From Burkholderia multivorans ATCC BAA-247 (GTDB taxonomy: Bacteria > Pseudomonadota > Gammaproteobacteria > Burkholderiales > Burkholderiaceae): DNA of 64,000 bases. Each line of letters opens with the position of its first letter. Position 1 is the first letter of the stretch. The stretch is taken from contig NZ_CP009832.1 in the NCBI RefSeq assembly GCF_000959525.1, forward strand, positions 2,170,001-2,234,000. Reading direction: 5' to 3'. A program made the translations under genes and the position numbers. The notes under the pieces are model-generated. The model was not told the DNA's origin, did no database searches, and saw only the letters and a list, made by a program, of their open reading frames with translations. This document shows, one piece after another, positions 21,154 through 28,513 of this stretch.

Positions 21154-21204
21154 TTGGGCCGGGCGATCGCGCTGACTACACTCGAGCCTTCTTGTCATAA
21201 CAAG
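21154..21204 (+). promoter_or_regulatory. Sigma-70 promoter and operator of the GntR-AprBA-like operon
   Basis: The -35 is TTGGGC (21154-21159), the spacer 17 nt and the -10 TACACT (21177-21182), predicting a start near 21189. The inverted repeat CTTGT-CATA-ACAAG (21191-21204) sits on the predicted start site and ends 7 nt before the ATG at 21212. This is the placement of an autorepressor site. Confidence 0.6.
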
Positions 21205-21211
21205 TCAGCCG

Positions 21212-21988
21212 ATGCCCGCACCGAACGTCGTACCGCTGTCGCCCGCCCCGCTCTACGTGCAGATCAAGGACACGCTGCGCGCGCGGATTCTCGACGGCAC
21301 CTATGCGCCGCACAGCCGGATGCCGTCCGAACACGAACTCTGCGCGATGTTCGACGTGAGCCGCATCACCGTACGCCAGGCGCTCGGCGATCTGCAGAAG
21401 GAAGGCCTGCTGTTCAAGCTGCATGGCAAGGGCACGTTCGTGTCGAAACCGAAGGCGTTCCAGAACGTGACGTCGCTGCAGGGCTTCGCCGAAGCGATGT
21501 CGTCGATGGGCTACGAGATCGTGAACCAGTTGCGCAGCCTGCGCATCGTCAAGGCCGACCGTCACCTCGCCGCGAAGCTGAACGTGCCCGAGCATGCGCC
21601 GCTCGTCGAGATTCATCGCGTGCGGCTGCTGAACCGCGAACCCGTGTCGCTCGAGCGCACGTGGCTGCCCGAAGCGCTCGGCAAGCGCATCGCAAGCGCC
21701 GATCTCGCGACGCGCGACATCTTCCTGATCCTCGAGAACGACTGCGGCGTGCCGCTCGGCCATGCCGACGTGGCGATCGACGCGATTCTCGCGGACGACG
21801 AGATCGTCGATGCACTGCGCGTCGAGGAAGGCAGCCCCGTGCTGCGCATCGAGCGGCTCACGCACGACGCGTCGGGCGCGCCGATCGATTACGAACACCT
21901 CTACTTCCGAGGCGACGCCTTCCAGTACCGGCTGCGCATCGACCGGCAGCGGCACAAGGCGCGCAAACCTGCAAGGAATCCGCGATGA
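21212..21988 (+). CDS. GntR family regulator, HutC/UTRA subgroup
   Basis: A 258-residue regulator. The winged HTH is at about 10-82 (YVQIKDTLRARILDGTYAPHSRMPSEHELCAMFDVSR, then TVRQALGDLQKEGL). The UTRA ligand domain follows at about 95-240, including LVEIHRVRLLNREPVSLERTWLP and the closing DYEHLYFRGDAFQYRL. It is the first gene of the operon, and its stop overlaps the next ATG (ATGA), which makes it a local autoregulated switch whose ligand is probably the imported substrate. Little ribosome site is visible before ATG 21212. Confidence 0.93.
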   Translation: MPAPNVVPLSPAPLYVQIKDTLRARILDGTYAPHSRMPSEHELCAMFDVSRITVRQALGDLQKEGLLFKLHGKGTFVSKPKAFQNVTSLQGFAEAMSSMGYEIVNQLRSLRIVKADRHLAAKLNVPEHAPLVEIHRVRLLNREPVSLERTWLPEALGKRIASADLATRDIFLILENDCGVPLGHADVAIDAILADDEIVDALRVEEGSPVLRIERLTHDASGAPIDYEHLYFRGDAFQYRLRIDRQRHKARKPARNPR

Positions 21989-23724
21989 ACACCCATGTAC
22001 TCGAATACGACATCGTCGTGGTCGGTGGCGGCACGGCCGGCCCGATGGCCGCGATCAAGGCGAAGGAACGCGACCCGTCGCTGCGCGTGCTGCTGCTCGA
22101 GAAGGCGAACGTGAAGCGCAGCGGCGCGATCTCGATGGGGATGGACGGACTGAACAACGCCGTGATTCCGGGCCACGCGACGCCCGAACAGTACACGCGC
22201 GAGATCACGATCGCGAACGACGGCATCGTCGATCAGGAAGCGGTCCATGCGTATGCGACGCACAGCTTCGCGACGATCGAGCAGCTCGACCGCTGGGGCG
22301 TGAAGTTCGAGAAGGACGGCACCGGCGACTATGCGGTGAAGAAGGTTCACCACATGGGGTCGTACGTGCTGCCGATGCCGGAAGGTCACGACATCAAGAA
22401 GGTGCTGTATCGGCAGCTGAAGCGCGCGCGCATCGCGATCACGAACCGCATCGTCGCGACGCGCGTGCTGACCGACGCGCACGGCAACGCGAGCGGCGTG
22501 CTCGGCTTCGACTGCCGCACCGCCGAGTTCCACGTGATCCGTGCAAAGGCCGTGATTCTGTGCTGCGGTGCGGCCGGCCGGCTCGGGCTGCCTGCGTCCG
22601 GCTATCTGATGGGCACCTACGAGAACCCGACGAACGCCGGCGATGGCTATGCGATGGCGTATCACGCGGGCGCCGCGCTCGCGAATCTCGAATGCTTCCA
22701 GATCAATCCGCTGATCAAGGACTACAACGGTCCCGCCTGCGCGTACGTGACGGGCCCGCTCGGCGGCTTCACCGCGAACGGCAAGGGCGAACGCTTCATC
22801 GAGTGCGATTACTGGAGCGGCCAGATGATGTGGGAGTTCTATCAGGAACTGCAAAGCGGCAACGGCCCCGTGTTCCTGAAGCTCGACCATCTCGCCGAAG
22901 AAACGATCCGGACGATCGAGCAGATCCTGCATACGAACGAACGGCCGAGCCGCGGACGCTTTCACGCGGGGCGCGGCACCGACTATCGGCGGCAGATGGT
23001 CGAGATGCACATCTCGGAGATCGGCTTCTGCAGCGGCCACAGCGCCTCCGGCGTGTACGTGAACGCGCGCGCCGAGACCACCGTGCCGGGCCTCTACGCG
23101 GCCGGCGACATGGCGGCGGTCCCGCACAACTACATGCTCGGCGCATTCACGTACGGCTGGTTCGCCGGACAGAACGCGGCCGACTACGTCGCCGGCCGCG
23201 AACTCGCGCCCGTCGATGCCGCGCAGGTCGACGCCGAACGCGCGCGCGTGTTCGCGCCGCTCGCGCGCGAGCACGGCCTCGCGCCCGCTCAGGTCGAATA
23301 CAAGCTGCGCCGGATGGTGAACGACTATCTGCAGCCGCCGAAGGTGACGCGCAAGATGGAAATCGGGCTGCAGCGTTTTGCCGACGTCGCTGAGGATATC
23401 GAAGCGATCAAGGCCACGCATCCGCACGAGCTGATGCGCGCCGCCGAAGTGCGTGCGATCCGCGACTGCGCGGAAATGGCTGCGCGCGCGTCGCTGTTTC
23501 GCACCGAGAGCCGCTGGGGGCTGTATCACCATCGCGTCGACTATCCGCATCGCAACGATGCCGAATGGTTCTGCCATACGTGGCTGCGCAAGCACGCGGA
23601 CGGCACGATGCGCAGCGAGAAGCGGCCAGTCGAACCGTACATCGTGCCGCTCGCCGACGACGAGCGCGCCGCCTACGCGCAATTGCGCATCCGCGAACCG
23701 GCCGCCGTCGCGGCCGCCCTCTGA
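21985..23724 (+). CDS. AprA-like FAD-dependent oxidoreductase (fumarate reductase/APS reductase flavoprotein family)
   Basis: A 579-residue flavoprotein of the succinate dehydrogenase/fumarate reductase/adenylylsulfate reductase alpha superfamily. The FAD-binding GGGTAG is at 14-19. KRSGAISMGMDGLNNAV corresponds to the AprA segment RSGAVAQG, and NAGDGYAMAYHAGA and GLYAAGDMAAVPHNYMLGAF to the second and third FAD contacts. It resembles AprA more than SdhA/FrdA, and its partner is AprB-like. The neighbourhood is not dissimilatory sulfate reduction: no sat, qmo or dsr gene is present. Substrate unknown. The family does hydride, sulfite or organic-acid redox chemistry, and AprA is about 620-650 residues, so this is a shorter paralogue. 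Confidence 0.85.
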   Translation: MNTHVLEYDIVVVGGGTAGPMAAIKAKERDPSLRVLLLEKANVKRSGAISMGMDGLNNAVIPGHATPEQYTREITIANDGIVDQEAVHAYATHSFATIEQLDRWGVKFEKDGTGDYAVKKVHHMGSYVLPMPEGHDIKKVLYRQLKRARIAITNRIVATRVLTDAHGNASGVLGFDCRTAEFHVIRAKAVILCCGAAGRLGLPASGYLMGTYENPTNAGDGYAMAYHAGAALANLECFQINPLIKDYNGPACAYVTGPLGGFTANGKGERFIECDYWSGQMMWEFYQELQSGNGPVFLKLDHLAEETIRTIEQILHTNERPSRGRFHAGRGTDYRRQMVEMHISEIGFCSGHSASGVYVNARAETTVPGLYAAGDMAAVPHNYMLGAFTYGWFAGQNAADYVAGRELAPVDAAQVDAERARVFAPLAREHGLAPAQVEYKLRRMVNDYLQPPKVTRKMEIGLQRFADVAEDIEAIKATHPHELMRAAEVRAIRDCAEMAARASLFRTESRWGLYHHRVDYPHRNDAEWFCHTWLRKHADGTMRSEKRPVEPYIVPLADDERAAYAQLRIREPAAVAAAL

Positions 23725-23735
23725 GGAGCCCGCCC

Positions 23736-23981
23736 GTGTCCCATACCCCGCACGAGATCTTCCTGCGCAGCAGCGCACCGGTCACGATCGACGAGGAACG
23801 CTGCATCGCCGACAAGGGCTGCACCGTCTGCGTCGACGTCTGTCCGCTCGATCTGCTCGCGATCGACGTCAGCAAAGGCAAGGCATACATGCAGTTCGAC
23901 GAGTGCTGGTACTGCATGCCGTGCGAACGCGACTGCCCGACCGGCGCCGTGAAGGTCGACATCCCGTATCTGCTGCGCTGA
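23736..23981 (+). CDS. AprB-like ferredoxin with two [4Fe-4S] clusters
   Basis: An 81-residue ferredoxin. GTG 23736 has GAGGA 8 nt upstream and lies 11 nt after the flavoprotein stop; the longer frame from 23565 is antisense noise. Cluster I ligands are Cys23-x5-Cys29-x2-Cys32-x3-Cys36-Pro. Cluster II ligands are Cys57-x2-Cys60-x2-Cys63-x3-Cys67-Pro in ECWYCMPCERDCP. Both the wider first spacing and the CW-x-C-x2-C pattern match the N-terminal part of the APS reductase beta subunit. It lacks the long AprB C-terminal tail. It is the likely electron partner of the flavoprotein. Confidence 0.9.
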   Translation: MSHTPHEIFLRSSAPVTIDEERCIADKGCTVCVDVCPLDLLAIDVSKGKAYMQFDECWYCMPCERDCPTGAVKVDIPYLLR

Positions 23982-24028
23982 GCGCGCATCGGTTGCCCAT
24001 CGATTCCCCTCTACCGGACTCACGACAG

Positions 24029-25453
24029 ATGAACACCACGCTACGGACCTTGCGCCTGCTTGCCGCGTCGCTCCTGCTCGCGGCCGCAGGCGCCGCGCAC
24101 GCCGAAACGATCCGCGTCGCGATCGGCACGCAGGACACGACGATCAATTGCGCGACCGGCGGCCTGCTGATCCGCGAACTGCACCTGCTCGACAAGTATC
24201 TGCCGCGCACCGGCAAGTATCGCGACGTCAAATACGACGTGCAGTGGAAGGACTTCACGTCAGGCGCGCCGCTCACCAACGAAATGGTGGCCGGCAAGCT
24301 CGACTTCGGCGCGATGGCGGACTTCCCCGGCGCGCTGAACGGCGCCGCGTTCCGCAAGGCCGGCCGTGCAAGCGTGTTCATCGCGGTGCTCGACGGCAGC
24401 ATCGACGGCAGCGGCAACGGCATCGTCGTGCCGACGAATTCGCCGGTGCGCGCGTTCGCGGACCTCAAGGGCAAGACGATCTCGGTGCCGTTCGCATCGA
24501 CCGCGCACGGCATGCTGCTGCGCGCGGTCCGTGCGCAGGGCTGGAATCCCGACACCGACGTGAACATCGTCACGCAGGCGCCCGAAGTCGCCGGCAGCGC
24601 GCTGAAGGCCGGCAAGATCGACGCGCACGCCGATTTCGTGCCGTTCGCCGACCTGTTCCCGTATCGCGGCATCGCGCGCAAGATCTACGACGGCGCGCAG
24701 ACTCACGCACCGACCTTCCACGGCGCGCTCGTCGATGCCGCGTATGCGCAGCGCTATCCGGAAATCGTCGTCGCGTACCTGCGCGCGGCGATCGAAGCGA
24801 ACCGGCTGCTCGCGCAGAACCCGGAGAAGTACAGCCTGCTGATCGAGAAAGTCACCGGGATCGAGGCGCCGGTCGACTATCTGTATCACGGTCCGCTCGG
24901 CATCCAGACGCGCGACCTCACGTGGAAGCCCGAATACCGGCAGGCCGTCGCGACCGCGATCGACACGCTGAAACTGCTGAAGAAGACCGACACCGCGCCC
25001 GACCCCGCGACGTTCATCGACGACCGCTACATCCGCGCGGCGTTCGCAGCGTCCGGGCTCGACTACGACGCGGCGCTGAAGCGCTACGGCCGGCAGCCGC
25101 TCGTCGCGAACGATGCGTCGACCGGCAAGCCGATCCGCGATTTCAACGACGTCGCGCAAGTCTGGCCGGCCGGCGACGAAGCCGTGCGTCATTACGCGAA
25201 TCCGGCGTCGGCGTTTGCGGCGCTCGCGAAGCTCGGCGCGTCTGCGAAGGTGCGTGCGGTCTTCGTGCACGACCATGCAAGCGGGCTCAAGCTGTTCGCC
25301 GATCAGGCCTGGTACGTGAAGGACGCGCACGGCGCCCTCACCGCGTTCCTGCTCAAGTCGGGCGCCGACGCTTACGCGCAGCGCGTGTCGGGTTCGGTCG
25401 TCGACTATGCGGCCGCGCGGACCGGCTCCGCCGCGGCGCTCGCCGCGCGCTGA
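24029..25453 (+). CDS. NitT/TauT-type ABC substrate-binding protein with NosL-like C-terminal extension
   Basis: A 474-residue periplasmic protein. The Sec signal is 1-25, ending AHA before ETIRVAIG. Residues about 26-340 are a SsuA/TauA/NMT1-type binding fold (EMVAGKLDFGAMADFPG, VPFASTAHGMLLRAV, DAHADFVPFADLFPYRG). Residues 367-474 are extra: the family is normally 310-340 long. This tail resembles the NosL copper-chaperone fold (RAVFVHDHASGLKLFADQAWYV, LTAFLLKSGADAYAQRVSGSVVDY) but lacks the NosL CxxCGM-type ligand motif. Its genes for permease and ATPase follow. The ligand is unknown; sulfonates, nitrate-like anions and pyrimidines are the usual choices. Confidence 0.85.
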   Translation: MNTTLRTLRLLAASLLLAAAGAAHAETIRVAIGTQDTTINCATGGLLIRELHLLDKYLPRTGKYRDVKYDVQWKDFTSGAPLTNEMVAGKLDFGAMADFPGALNGAAFRKAGRASVFIAVLDGSIDGSGNGIVVPTNSPVRAFADLKGKTISVPFASTAHGMLLRAVRAQGWNPDTDVNIVTQAPEVAGSALKAGKIDAHADFVPFADLFPYRGIARKIYDGAQTHAPTFHGALVDAAYAQRYPEIVVAYLRAAIEANRLLAQNPEKYSLLIEKVTGIEAPVDYLYHGPLGIQTRDLTWKPEYRQAVATAIDTLKLLKKTDTAPDPATFIDDRYIRAAFAASGLDYDAALKRYGRQPLVANDASTGKPIRDFNDVAQVWPAGDEAVRHYANPASAFAALAKLGASAKVRAVFVHDHASGLKLFADQAWYVKDAHGALTAFLLKSGADAYAQRVSGSVVDYAAARTGSAAALAAR

Positions 25454-25490
25454 ACGGCGCGCCTCTCCCCTCATCGATACGGATATCCGC

Positions 25491-26366
25491 ATGGCCGCGA
25501 CCTTCGAGCTTGCCAAACGCCGTCTCTCCGAACCGTCCCGCGCCGGCGACGCGCGCGCCGCCCATGCCGCCGCACGCGGTGCGCCGCCGCTGCTGCGCCG
25601 TCGCGCCGCGCGGCTCGCGTCGCTCGTCGCGTGCATCGCGCTGTGGCAGGCCGCCGTCCATTGGCGACTGTCGCTCGGCGTCGTCACGTTCGCGAACGTC
25701 CCCGCCCCGGCCGATGTCGGCCCCGCGCTGTGGGCGCTACTGCATTCGCCGAAGCTGCCGATGCACCTGTTTGCAAGCCTTACGCGCGTGCTCGCCGGCT
25801 TCGCCGCGGCGGCGGTGACGGGCGTCGGACTCGGTCTCGCGATCGGCCGCTATCGCGCGCTCGAAGACGCGCTGCTGCCGCCGCTCGAGGTGCTGCGGCC
25901 GATTCCGGCCGTCGCGTGGATTCCGCTCGCGATCCTGATGTTTCCGTCGTCCGAGCTCAGCATGATGTTCATCACGTTCGTCGGCGCGCTGTTCCCGATC
26001 CTGCTGAACACCGTGCACGGCGCGGAAGCCGTCGACCCTCGCCTCGTCGCGACTGCGCGCAGCCTCGGCACACGCGGCTTCGCGCTCTACGCGGAAGTGA
26101 TCCTGCCCGGCGCGGCACCGGCGATCTTCACGGGGCTGTCGATCGGCATGGGCACCGCGTGGTTCTGCCTCGTCACGGCCGAGATGATCGCCGGCCAGTA
26201 CGGCATCGGCTATTTCACCTGGGCGTCGTACACGCTGCAGAACTATCCCGACATCGTCGTCGGCATGGCGTTGATCGGGCTGCTCGGCATGGGCAGCAGC
26301 CTGCTCGTCAAGCGGATCGGCAGCGCGCTCACGCCGTGGTACGCACCGCGCGGAGGCCGGCGATGA
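25491..26366 (+). CDS. ABC transporter permease, SsuC/TauC type
   Basis: A 291-residue inner-membrane permease with six predicted helices and the BPD_transp_1 EAA loop (ATARSLGTRGFALYAEVILPGAAPAIFTGL). ATG 25491 begins MAATFELAKRR; the frame open from 25407 has no support. Its last codon overlaps the ATPase start (ATGA). It forms the channel of the importer with the binding protein upstream and the ATPase downstream. Confidence 0.93.
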   Translation: MAATFELAKRRLSEPSRAGDARAAHAAARGAPPLLRRRAARLASLVACIALWQAAVHWRLSLGVVTFANVPAPADVGPALWALLHSPKLPMHLFASLTRVLAGFAAAAVTGVGLGLAIGRYRALEDALLPPLEVLRPIPAVAWIPLAILMFPSSELSMMFITFVGALFPILLNTVHGAEAVDPRLVATARSLGTRGFALYAEVILPGAAPAIFTGLSIGMGTAWFCLVTAEMIAGQYGIGYFTWASYTLQNYPDIVVGMALIGLLGMGSSLLVKRIGSALTPWYAPRGGRR

Positions 26367-27151
26367 GCGCCGCCGCATCGGCATCGGCCGCGCCCGGCCG
26401 CGTCGGCGTGCGCGCGCTGACGATCGAACTCGGTCCGCCGCACGCGCGTTTCGCGGCGCTCGATTCGCTCGAGCTCGACGTCGCACCCGGCGAATTCGTC
26501 TGCGTGCTCGGACCGTCCGGTTGCGGGAAATCGACGTTGCTCGGCGCACTGGCCGGGCACGTCGCGGCGACACGCGGCGAGATCGTCGTCGACGGCCAAC
26601 GCGTCGATCGCCCACACCCCGATCGCGGGCTCGTGTTCCAGCAGCACACGCTGTTTCCATGGAAGCGCGTGATCGACAACGTCGCGTTCGGCCTGAAGAT
26701 GAAGGGCGTGCCCGCGCGCGAGCGCCGCCGCGAGGCCGCCGAACTGCTCGAACTCGTCGGACTCGGCGCGTTCGGCGCGCACTATCCGGCGCAACTGTCC
26801 GGCGGCATGCAACAGCGCGTCGAAATCGCCCGCGTGCTGATCAACCGGCCGCGCGTCCTGCTGATGGACGAGCCGTTCGGCGCGCTCGACGCGCAGACGC
26901 GCCGGATGATGCAGACGCTGCTGCTCGACATCTGGTCGCGCATCGGCACGACCGTGCTGTTCGTCACGCACGACATCGAGGAAGCGCTGTTTCTCGGCGA
27001 TCGCATCGTAATGCTGTCGCCGCGGCCCGCGCGCATCGTCGCCGACATTCGCGTGCCGCTCGCGCGACCGCGCACCGACGACAGCACGACCGAACCTGCC
27101 TTCGTCGACATCAAGCGCCGCTGCCTCGCCTTGCTGCGCGATGCGGGCTGA
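26363..27151 (+). CDS. ABC transporter ATP-binding protein, SsuB/TauB type
   Basis: A 262-residue ATPase. Walker A is GPSGCGKST (50-58), the Q loop VFQQHTLFPWKRVIDNV, the signature LSGGMQQR (from 145), Walker B LLMDEP (Asp169, Glu170) and the H loop VTHD (His203). All key residues are intact. The start overlaps the permease stop by four bases. It powers the importer of the AprBA-like operon. Confidence 0.95.
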   Translation: MSAAASASAAPGRVGVRALTIELGPPHARFAALDSLELDVAPGEFVCVLGPSGCGKSTLLGALAGHVAATRGEIVVDGQRVDRPHPDRGLVFQQHTLFPWKRVIDNVAFGLKMKGVPARERRREAAELLELVGLGAFGAHYPAQLSGGMQQRVEIARVLINRPRVLLMDEPFGALDAQTRRMMQTLLLDIWSRIGTTVLFVTHDIEEALFLGDRIVMLSPRPARIVADIRVPLARPRTDDSTTEPAFVDIKRRCLALLRDAG

Positions 27152-27191
27152 CTGCGCGGCGCCGGCCCCTTTACCGATCCGGTTTTCATCC

Positions 27192-28193
27192 ATGACCTTT
27201 TCCGCTCCTGCCTTTCCGCCGTCCGGTGCCTACGATGCCTATGACGCCGACCACGCCGCGCTGCTCGCGCGGCTCGCCGCAGCCGACGCATCGGTGCGTC
27301 GCGTCGCACTGCTTGAACTCGCCGATCTCGAAGATGCGGCGCTCGTGCCCACGTTCGTCGCCGTGCTGCGCGACGATCCGTCCGCCGACGTGCGCTGCGA
27401 AGCCGCGCGCGTGCTCGGCGCATGGGAGCGGCCCGACGTCGTCGACGCACTGTGCGCGGCGCTGCTCGATCGCGACGACGACGTGCGCGCGAGTGCGGCG
27501 CAGAGCCTGTCCGAACTGAAGGAACTCGCGTCCGGCGCCGTGCTGTGCCGCTGGGCCGATCGGGCCGAGCCGTCCGTGCGCGCCGCCGTCCTGCGCGGCC
27601 TGCGCGAATTGCGCGATCCCGACGCGTATGCGCCCGCCCTGCGCGCGCTCGAGGACGGCACCGCGGCCGTGCGCGCGGAGGCCGTCGCGGTGCTGGGCTG
27701 GCTCAAGGATGCGCGCGCACTCGCGCCGCTCGCACGTATCGCGACCGCCGATGCCGACGCCGCCGTGCGACGGATCGCGGTCGGTGCACTCGGCTTCGCG
27801 GCGTCCGGCGACGCCGCCGTTGCCGACGCGCTGCTTGTCGCGCTGCGCGACCGCGAATGGCAGGTGCGCGAGGAAGCGGCCGCGACGCTCGGCAAGCTGC
27901 GGATCGCGGCCGCGCGCGCGCCGCTCGTCACCGCGCTCGACGACGATTACTGGCAGGTGCGCCTGCGCGCCGCACGCGCGCTCGGGCAGCTGCGCGACGC
28001 CGCTGCGGCACCGGCCGTCGCGGCGCTGCTCGTGCATTCGATCAGCAATCTGCGCAAGGAAGCCGCGCTCGCATTGGGCGAACTGCGCGATTCGGCGTCG
28101 CTGCCCGCGCTGCATGCGGCGCTCGACGATCGCGATCCGGAAGTGCGCAAGGCCGTGCGCATCGCGATCCGGCAGATCGAGGACGCGCAATGA
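27192..28193 (+). CDS. HEAT-repeat (PBS lyase-like) protein
   Basis: A 333-residue all-helical solenoid of about nine to ten HEAT repeats of roughly 31 residues, each with the pattern DxxxxVRxxAAxxLGxLxD (for example DDPSADVRCEAARVLGAW and DDRDPEVRKAVRIAI). The repeats run from residue about 25 to the C terminus with no catalytic domain. Such PBS-lyase-type HEAT proteins act as scaffolds or help attach cofactors. It lies 40 nt after the ABC ATPase and overlaps the DUF971 gene by four bases, so it belongs to the operon. A role in assembling or docking the redox partners is inference. Confidence 0.88.
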   Translation: MTFSAPAFPPSGAYDAYDADHAALLARLAAADASVRRVALLELADLEDAALVPTFVAVLRDDPSADVRCEAARVLGAWERPDVVDALCAALLDRDDDVRASAAQSLSELKELASGAVLCRWADRAEPSVRAAVLRGLRELRDPDAYAPALRALEDGTAAVRAEAVAVLGWLKDARALAPLARIATADADAAVRRIAVGALGFAASGDAAVADALLVALRDREWQVREEAAATLGKLRIAAARAPLVTALDDDYWQVRLRAARALGQLRDAAAAPAVAALLVHSISNLRKEAALALGELRDSASLPALHAALDDRDPEVRKAVRIAIRQIEDAQ

Positions 28194-28513
28194 CTGCGCC
28201 GACCGAACTCGTGCTTGATCATGCGGCGCGCGCGCTGACGTTGCGCTGGGCCGACGGCGGCACGCAGCGCATCGACTATGCGCGGCTGCGCCGTGCCTGT
28301 CCGTGCGCGGCATGCCGCGCGCTGCGCCGTCGCGGCATGGTCGTCGTCGCGCCGGCCGATCTGACGCTGGCCGGCGTGGAGCCGGTCGGCTACGGCATCT
28401 GCGTCGCGTTCGGCGACGGGCATGCGCGCGGCATTTATCCGTGGGCGTATCTGGCTGAACTGCGGGATGCCGGAGAGAACGCGACGATCGATGCGTCGTG
28501 CGCGGACGTCTGA
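28190..28513 (+). CDS. DUF971 (GBBH-like N-terminal domain) protein
   Basis: A 107-residue single-domain protein. The family marks are LRWADGGTQRIDYARLRRACPCAACR, with a likely metal site Cys37-x-Cys39-x2-Cys42, and the closing FGDGHARGIYPWAYLAEL with His78. The fold is that of the N-terminal zinc domain of gamma-butyrobetaine hydroxylase. Stand-alone copies occur beside Fe-S and redox genes and have no firmly assigned function. It is coupled to the HEAT-repeat gene by ATGA overlap and is the last gene of the operon. No clear terminator follows. Confidence 0.88.
   Translation: MTAPTELVLDHAARALTLRWADGGTQRIDYARLRRACPCAACRALRRRGMVVVAPADLTLAGVEPVGYGICVAFGDGHARGIYPWAYLAELRDAGENATIDASCADV

Follow-up and report, generated by a model that had tools for sequence, protein, structure and literature searches.

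An operon of eight genes in a 64-kb stretch of the Burkholderia multivorans ATCC BAA-247 genome (contig NZ_CP009832.1; the window, that is, the whole 64,000 nt analysed, from a genome of 6.32 Mb in three contigs) joins a flavin adenine dinucleotide (FAD) flavoprotein, related to adenosine 5′-phosphosulfate (APS) reductase (AprA) and 3′-phosphoadenosine 5′-phosphosulfate (PAPS) reductase, to a small ferredoxin, an ATP-binding cassette (ABC) importer of the NitT/TauT type, a HEAT-repeat protein, a DUF971 protein and a GntR-type regulator. With confidence just short of even, we propose that this operon would import a small anionic organosulfur compound with a sulfo group and cleave it reductively, releasing sulfite. 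The proposal draws on gene content, conservation, the relationship of the flavoprotein to AprA and PAPS reductase, its active-site columns and the genes next to its relatives. The operon is uncharacterised as far as our searches show: no paper on this gene set was found in the open-licence literature (an absence that is weak evidence), and the accessible parts of PMC8557817 and PMC10708946 hold nothing on it.

Conservation of the operon

The operon is real and widely conserved, and it is far from a chance arrangement because the same gene set recurs across genera. In the less biased sample, the flavoprotein was found in 21 of 398 Pseudomonadota genomes (10 of 212 genera), and within the genus 16 of 24 relatives carry it. 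Relatives of the flavoprotein are encoded in at least 592 stretches of one genome collection; the family ranges over Burkholderia, Pseudomonas, rhizobia, Methylobacterium, cyanobacteria and actinobacteria, with the flavoproteins of Burkholderia ambifaria, B. lata and others being 94–96% identical to that of the window, which makes a host from the Burkholderia cepacia group probable.

Genes were called by blastp at E 1e-5 in two sets of neighbourhoods: (i) 20 neighbourhoods, from 18 of the 21 matching Pseudomonadota genomes (G000, G017 and G235 left out) plus two within-genus relatives; (ii) 95 nearer neighbourhoods, from the 80 best genome-contig matches plus 15 plasmid records, which are biased to close relatives and some of which end at contig ends. 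Matches were accepted anywhere in a stretch in both sets, so that some of the genes counted as importer or GntR are non-cognate. Flavoprotein, ferredoxin, HEAT and DUF971 genes were found together in 20 of the 20 neighbourhoods, and binding protein plus permease in 19; a first-pass annotation of this DNA had made its proposal depend on the gene set recurring in other genomes, as these four genes do. In the nearer set, the flavoprotein and the ferredoxin were each present in 95 of 95 loci, followed by HEAT (91), GntR (84), ATPase (76), DUF971 (76), binding protein (72) and permease (70). Locus L087 was left out of alignment A3 because of a stop codon in the reference.

Among the gene orders observed are that of the window with its GntR-type regulator and the order DUF971-flavoprotein-ferredoxin-HEAT with a Crp/Fnr-family regulator nearby; the importer is also present in three of four plasmid loci of the latter order. 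The Crp/Fnr-family regulators of some loci were considered as oxygen sensors and rejected, their N-termini having no Cys cluster. Two cyanobacterial plasmids carry flavoprotein-ferredoxin-HEAT-Mrp and Nostoc the same genes interrupted by others, while in the actinobacterium Tsukamurella flavoprotein and HEAT are fused into one protein of 893 residues.

Relationship of the flavoprotein and ferredoxin to APS and PAPS reductases

The flavoprotein is a member of NCBIfam NF006131/PRK08275 (1150.6 bits; cut-off 587) and has the Pfam domains FAD_binding_2 and Succ_DH_flav_C. Among solved structures it comes closest in sequence to 8a8o_A, the PAPS reductase alpha subunit from Methanothermococcus thermolithotrophicus (E 1.4e-57), with AprA next, and its AprA model score (175.7) lies below the cut-off of 641.75. 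In the main tree (28 rows; TcuA omitted for its long branch), the window family forms its own clade (support 100/100), AprA and an Ilyobacter PAPS-reductase-like protein form a separate clade (100/100), and SdhA, FrdA and NadB form a third (99/99), the window flavoprotein being outside both of the latter. A branch supported at 96/94 sets AprA, the window family and one further AprA-like protein against the SdhA/FrdA/NadB side plus AsfA. In the first tree, which included TcuA, the support for the family was 74/100, and long branches make the deeper joins less sure. The earlier idea of an AprBA-like redox pair is thus supported by the tree and the solved relatives (8a8o, AprA and AprB), and the flavoprotein, compared with AprA, SdhA, FrdA and aspartate oxidase, does not fall inside a characterised non-Apr clade.

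In the alignment, the catalytic Arg loop of SdhA (GANRLGG-type) is deleted in the flavoprotein, as in AprA, and the His of the SdhA motif QFHPTG is Asn241. Six residues, N57, S344, E345, G351, H352 and H381, coincide with residues or motif columns (SE..GxH) of AprA/PAPS reductase and are invariant in 116 of 116 family sequences; for H381, AprA has the same residue, whereas the Ilyobacter PAPS-reductase-like protein has Lys. From tree and alignment, the flavoprotein appears AprA-like, not AprA and hardly a fumarate reductase. A function as soluble fumarate reductase, as succinate dehydrogenase or as a related alpha,beta-dehydrogenase would accord with its two Pfam domains and with the database name of PRK08275 (‘fumarate reductase/succinate dehydrogenase flavoprotein subunit'), a name also borne by PRK13800, whose members are fusions of flavoprotein and HEAT. 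This is very improbable, as the catalytic Arg and His of SdhA are lost, the protein lies outside the SdhA/FrdA/NadB group and the operon has no membrane anchor or FrdB-type subunit. The name is probably a misnomer, and a misleading one, for this large flavoprotein family.

Among solved relatives of the ferredoxin, two long polyferredoxin-type chains come first, then AprB (3gyx_B and 1jnr_B) and, lower, PAPS reductase beta (8a8o_C); its AprB model score is 38.6, below the cut-off of 135.65. The cysteines had been credited with AprB spacing, of which the spelling of the motifs and the second motif hold: CW.C..C...CP matches AprB and keeps the AprB Trp. The first motif departs from it, being C-x5-C-x2-C-x3-CP in the window, C-x2-C-x2-C-x3-CP in six AprB proteins adjoining the fetched AprA loci and C-x3-C-x2-C-x3-CP in two cyanobacterial and one actinobacterial ferredoxins of the window family. 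A search of the window's genome for AprA at E 1e-100 gave no match.

Gene neighbours and the direction of the reaction

Within ~10 kb of the flavoprotein, a homologue of ferredoxin-NADP reductase, an NADPH (reduced nicotinamide adenine dinucleotide phosphate) enzyme, was found in 10 of the 20 loci and FdxA in 6. In locus L205, YeiH, this reductase, flavoprotein, ferredoxin and HEAT genes are consecutive on one strand, and on Acidithiobacillus caldus pTcM1 and in L212 FdxA plus a large pyridine-nucleotide oxidoreductase stand in place of ferredoxin-NADP reductase. The first-pass annotation had left the chemistry as oxidation or reduction; reduction is favoured, and oxidation is less likely because the NADPH-ferredoxin reductase and FdxA neighbours point to reduction. 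At L029:10574-14035 and L212:453-4235, an oxidoreductase of 1150–1260 residues lies beside FdxA and the operon, with no ferredoxin-NADP reductase found there; that of L212 is PRK06567-like, below cut-off.

Sulfur-related genes form the second group of neighbours. YeiH homologues lie near 7 of the 20 loci: of 23 matches in 20 genomes, seven are within 10 kb of the flavoprotein, compared with ~0.09 expected at random by our own arithmetic, and two cyanobacterial loci are further cases. According to the accessible text of PMC12880088, YeiH drives sulfite resistance and yeiH deletion makes Salmonella sulfite-sensitive. TauE/SafE genes adjoin two cyanobacterial loci and the Aquabacterium locus. Loci of the Pseudomonas putida group adjoin an SsuA-like importer, a TauD-like dioxygenase, a LysR gene and a TonB receptor (families tested on L097), and sulfonate or sulfate-ester genes lie near loci of P. 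putida-group bacteria, Sinorhizobium and Cupriavidus. Among the matches listed, SsuA was near the flavoprotein in 5 of 30 genomes (~0.6 expected from 201 matches in ~202 Mb, again our own arithmetic), an enrichment that stems from two or three independent lineages and is given little weight. The earlier guess of organosulfur import gains support from this sulfur-related context.

Importer, HEAT and DUF971 proteins

The binding protein, permease and ATPase are of the NitT/TauT type, as are SsuABC and TauABC, and the best solved structures for the binding protein are SsuA (2x26) and TauA (6ssy). It differs from these systems in that the binding protein, of 474 residues, scores 118.8 bits against the SsuA family TIGR01728, below the cut-off of 163.5, and in that the operon is without SsuD, SsuE or TauD. 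In Pararobbsia, the usual importer is absent and a true SsuA lies downstream instead (274.7 bits against the same cut-off).

HEAT is tied to the flavoprotein because the two are fused in one protein in Tsukamurella, and the window HEAT protein corresponds to the C-terminal portion of NF010374, a family of flavoprotein-HEAT fusions; a role bound up with the flavoprotein is probable. DUF971 can be tied to iron-sulfur loading because an Mrp/ApbC-type protein (Pfam ParA/NUBPL and FeS_assembly_P; NCBIfam matches below cut-off) takes its place in cyanobacteria, which makes it a likely iron-sulfur loading helper; the titles of its solved relatives (3luu_A, 2l6p_A and 2l6n_A) assign no role. The fusion and the DUF971/Mrp exchange are both in line with the assembly or docking function that had been suggested for the two proteins.

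Relation to asf

The first-pass annotation knew of no characterised pathway with this composition and had overlooked asfRABC, whose composition is similar. As described in the accessible text of PMC4267179, asfRABC of P. putida S-313 encodes a reductase, a ferredoxin, a binding protein, an ABC transporter and the LysR regulator AsfR, and asfA mutants lose the use of aromatic sulfonates. In Cupriavidus metallidurans CH34, asfRAB is on chromosome 2, AsfA/AsfB being Rmet_4334/5 (PMC2864759, accessible text), and asfA was found in Variovorax, Cupriavidus, Burkholderia, Pseudomonas, Rhodococcus and others (PMC9694294, accessible text). The window operon likewise has a reductase, a small ferredoxin, an SsuA-like binding protein and an ABC importer in one cluster, in an organosulfur context. 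It differs in its GntR/UTRA regulator, where asf has a LysR-type AsfR, and in its HEAT and DUF971 genes, neither of which is annotated in three asf-type loci with incomplete gene tables.

The CH34 pair was placed by locus-tag interpolation between open reading frames taken for dnaE2, TauD and squalene-hopene cyclase, which gives 927.9–929.9 kb of the megaplasmid; a placement at 928 kb is likely, not proven. A FrdA-like pair at 895 kb fits the numbering order better (flavoprotein before iron-sulfur protein) and the distance worse, and TcuAB at 793.5 kb was rejected as it scores as TcuA/TcuB and is too far off. An SsuA-like gene lies near the 928-kb pair, no LysR gene was recognised right beside it and no HEAT was found by blastp around it. 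The presumed AsfA (549 residues) is 23% identical to the window flavoprotein, a comparison made with the CH34 protein and not with S-313 AsfA itself, and the presumed AsfB ferredoxin is 33% identical to that of the window over 58 residues. In the tree, the presumed AsfA groups with SdhA/NadB on a very long branch, and joining it to the window family is not rejected (approximately unbiased test, P value=0.063).

It is quite unlikely that the operon is a form of asf, with S-313 AsfA in the window family and the CH34 gene not its true relative, an explanation that would be compatible with either mechanism considered below. The genus range of asfA in the accessible text of PMC9694294 is much like that of the window family, the CH34-type flavoprotein occurs in 0 of 15 genomes (nearly all of them window-family carriers) and in 6 of 200 of the order, and the topology test just given leaves the join open. 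Against it, the accessible text of PMC2864759 puts AsfA/AsfB at Rmet_4334/5, and that megaplasmid has no window-family member; in Azospirillum, genes for an SsuA-type binding protein and for ABC components come after a CH34-type pair, which fits asfABC; and asfR is a LysR gene where the window has GntR, with no HEAT or DUF971 described for asf in the accessible text of PMC4267179. That the operon is the known asf system itself is not favoured: the only match to the window flavoprotein on the CH34 asf replicon is FrdA-like, at 28% identity. Probably, the operon works in the same kind of pathway as asf with a different flavoprotein. It would then be an organosulfur module resembling asf, with an enzyme of the AprA/PAPS-reductase kind at its core and HEAT and DUF971 proteins as partners.

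The two flavoprotein types also meet on one replicon. A window-type flavoprotein and an AsfA-type match are <1 kb apart on two Sinorhizobium replicons (NZ_CP024308, 226000-248000; NZ_CP013110, 1521465-1525566). On S. fredii plasmid pSfreNXT3a, the flavoprotein is at 235190-236929 and the AsfA-type match at 237722-239288, with two annotated luciferase-like monooxygenase (LLM) flavin oxidoreductases some 6 kb away; the match is in three pieces, unannotated and may be broken, and the like-placed match of S. americanum is in one piece.

Such neighbours bear on whether flavoprotein and ferredoxin are an electron-transfer pair feeding a separate C–S-cleaving oxygenase, as proposed for AsfAB. The similar asfRABC layout and the aromatic-sulfonate phenotype of asfA mutants (PMC4267179, accessible text), the AsfA-type match and LLM oxidoreductases on pSfreNXT3a, and an FMN (flavin mononucleotide) monooxygenase and acyl-CoA-dehydrogenase-type genes near the C. 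pinatubonensis locus would all suit such a relay. We nevertheless regard it as rather unlikely: no conserved oxygenase was found among those sought (TauD-like near 2 of 20 loci and NtaA-like near 0 of 20; 8 and 6 of the 95 nearer ones), and an AprA-like active site kept strictly in all 116 family sequences suggests catalysis on the sulfo group and not mere relay.

Separately, a fatty-acid-desaturase-type protein is encoded next to or within ~9 kb of AsfA-type flavoprotein genes at three loci (CH34, L144:9984-11015; S. fredii, L222:19791-20717; Rhizobium sp. NXC24, L224:527-1540), and could be an oxygenase fed by AsfAB.

Proposed mechanism

For reductive cleavage by the operon itself, we infer from gene context the substrate class, the direction, the sulfite product and the roles of HEAT, DUF971 and GntR. 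The substrate, taken up through the SsuABC/TauABC-like importer, would be one of the sulfonates, sulfate esters or sulfamates, with a sulfonate the likeliest. Electrons would pass from NADPH via ferredoxin-NADP reductase and ferredoxin to the 2x[4Fe-4S] ferredoxin subunit of the operon and on to FAD; reduced FAD would attack the sulfur, a step put forward for APS and PAPS reductases too, and sulfite would be split off from the organic moiety. It would enter cysteine synthesis, and in genomes with YeiH- or TauE-type transporters these would export or detoxify any surplus. The HEAT protein may hold the complex together, DUF971 (the Mrp-type protein in cyanobacteria) may help to load the iron-sulfur clusters, and GntR may repress the operon until substrate is present.

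The model is PAPS reductase, for which attack of FAD N5 on sulfur, an FAD-sulfite intermediate and an electron path over two [4Fe-4S] clusters and a beta-subunit Trp are proposed (PMC10322725, accessible text). With AprBA and PAPS reductase (8a8o), the window pair has in common the make-up of FAD flavoprotein plus 2x[4Fe-4S] ferredoxin subunit, the side of the superfamily tree, the Asn, His and SE..GxH columns and the Trp beside the second cluster. It differs in its separate clade, in scores far below the AprA and AprB cut-offs, in a Leu for the presumed catalytic Arg, in the first cysteine spacing of the ferredoxin and in an operon with its own importer, HEAT and DUF971. The same anatomy, in an operon that brings its own importer and lacks any nucleotide-activating gene, suggests that a sulfo compound taken up from outside undergoes PAPS-reductase chemistry. 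A new class of enzyme is a doubtful yet serious prospect: a flavoprotein complex, driven by NADPH and ferredoxin, that would cleave organosulfonates (or sulfamates or sulfate esters) independently of oxygen via an FAD-sulfite intermediate. To our knowledge, the sulfonate routes of aerobes use oxygenases. The ssu/asf route is described as oxygenase-dependent, and sulfate esters and sulfonates as major organic sulfur forms in soil (PMC4267179, accessible text). Such a class, if real, would be found in ordinary aerobic soil bacteria and cyanobacteria and would differ from SsuD, TauD and the proposed Asf routes in needing no oxygen. A reductive route of this kind, conserved across the range of the family, would alter the way in which sulfur cycling is deduced from genomes.

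Several observations weigh against reductive release of sulfite. (i) The catalytic residues of AprA, which we take to be Asn, His and Arg (R265 in Archaeoglobus fulgidus; A. fulgidus and Escherichia coli numbering both presumed), align with Asn57, His381 and Leu243, and with Leu at the Arg position the chemistry is therefore not simply that of AprA. (ii) Both ferredoxin-NADP reductases that were scanned fall below the NCBIfam cut-off, the one FdxA scanned being above its own. (iii) None of the seven near YeiH matches reaches the NCBIfam cut-off and one has an internal stop (one was also scanned with Pfam, and passes); five come from one genus and the other two from two more families, and YeiH is a common family, present in 6 of 14 control genomes. 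(iv) In the nearer set, a binding-protein match is absent from 23 of 95 loci, partly owing to contig ends, and extra neighbours are rare (YeiH 2, ferredoxin-NADP reductase 1, TauE-type 4 and TauD-like 8 of 95, by queries drawn partly from the searched loci, each recovering its own locus); therefore the neighbour argument rests mainly on the more distant members. (v) TauD-like genes are scarce in the 20-locus set as well. (vi) Amidase genes lie near the Methylocystis, Nostoc and one further locus and could mean a nitrogen compound.

The last point bears on whether the anion handled by the operon is one without sulfur, such as a nitrogen compound or a small carboxylate, the sulfur neighbours being incidental. 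NitT/TauT importers carry other anions too, the binding protein misses the SsuA cut-off, amidase neighbours occur in three lineages, two of them with GNAT (GCN5-related N-acetyltransferase) genes, and an ammonium transporter and glnK lie beyond the Aquabacterium operon; the amidases may hint at an amide-linked substrate. Even so, a non-sulfur anion does not seem likely, given that YeiH and TauE genes adjoin the operon in separate lineages, that the Pseudomonas, Sinorhizobium and Cupriavidus loci have genes for sulfonates or sulfate esters close by and that the flavoprotein is related to AprA/PAPS reductase.

The amidases are at L032:12749-14119, L209:3246-4685 and L119:16026-17426; PRK06169 was identified in Methylocystis and in the genome of L209, the Nostoc amidase is similar, at 57% identity to that of L209, and the GNAT gene is next to the amidase in Methylocystis and Nostoc.

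Operon layout and regulation

The eight open reading frames on the + strand form a tight operon at 21212-28513 (Table 1). As had been noted from the letters, they are arranged with ATGA overlaps and short gaps: by the measured coordinates, consecutive frames overlap by 4 bases (ATGA) at three junctions and are 11, 47, 37 and 40 bases apart at the others, and Pfam confirmed the domains first named for the proteins.

Table 1. Coordinates of the operon genes and the upstream palindrome in the window
Feature	Position	Strand	Basis or remark
Palindrome CTTGTCATAACAAG	21191..21204	none	Candidate GntR/UTRA operator, immediately 5′ of GntR start codon
GntR/UTRA (HutC-type) transcription regulator, 258 aa	21212-21988	+	Pfam UTRA, GntR; stop overlaps next start
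AprA/PAPS-reductase-related FAD flavoprotein, 579 aa	21985-23724	+	NF006131/PRK08275; 8a8o_A; tree; active-site columns
2x[4Fe-4S] ferredoxin, AprB-like subunit, 81 aa, GTG start	23736-23981	+	Pfam Fer4_7
NitT/TauT (SsuA/TauA-type) periplasmic substrate-binding protein, 474 aa	24029-25453	+	TIGR01728-like; SsuA/TauA structures
ABC permease, 291 aa	25491-26366	+	Pfam BPD_transp_1; NtrB/SsuC/TauC-like, all below cut-off
ABC ATPase, 262 aa	26363-27151	+	Pfam ABC_tran; TauB/SaoA/NtrCD-like, all of these below cut-off
HEAT-repeat protein, 333 aa, probable flavoprotein partner	27192-28193	+	Pfam HEAT_2, 5 stretches
DUF971 (GBBH-like N) protein, 107 aa, CPCAAC motif	28190-28513	+	Pfam PF06155

Prediction of sigma-70 promoters and terminators gave no signal over shuffles (0 promoters versus 0.8, and 4 terminators versus 4.4). 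The palindrome CTTGTCATAACAAG, of 14 bases, occurs once within the window, and one of the same pattern is close to the GntR start in 37 of 84 loci, with none found in the other 47 (background 0.027 per kb); it is likely the operator of the GntR/UTRA regulator, as judged from its pattern and position.

Other AprA-like proteins

A further AprA-like flavoprotein, 30% identical to that of the window and on its own long branch, is encoded at L173 in a Burkholderiales genome (G034, C19:70734-72371) that encodes AprA besides. On the Ilyobacter polytropus plasmid pILYOP02 (L176:5378-10709), cysC, an AprA-like flavoprotein, a ferredoxin, cysD and a GTP-binding protein stand in a row, and these genes probably make up a bacterial equivalent of the PAPS reductase pathway of methanogens; the plasmid was typed as conjugative.

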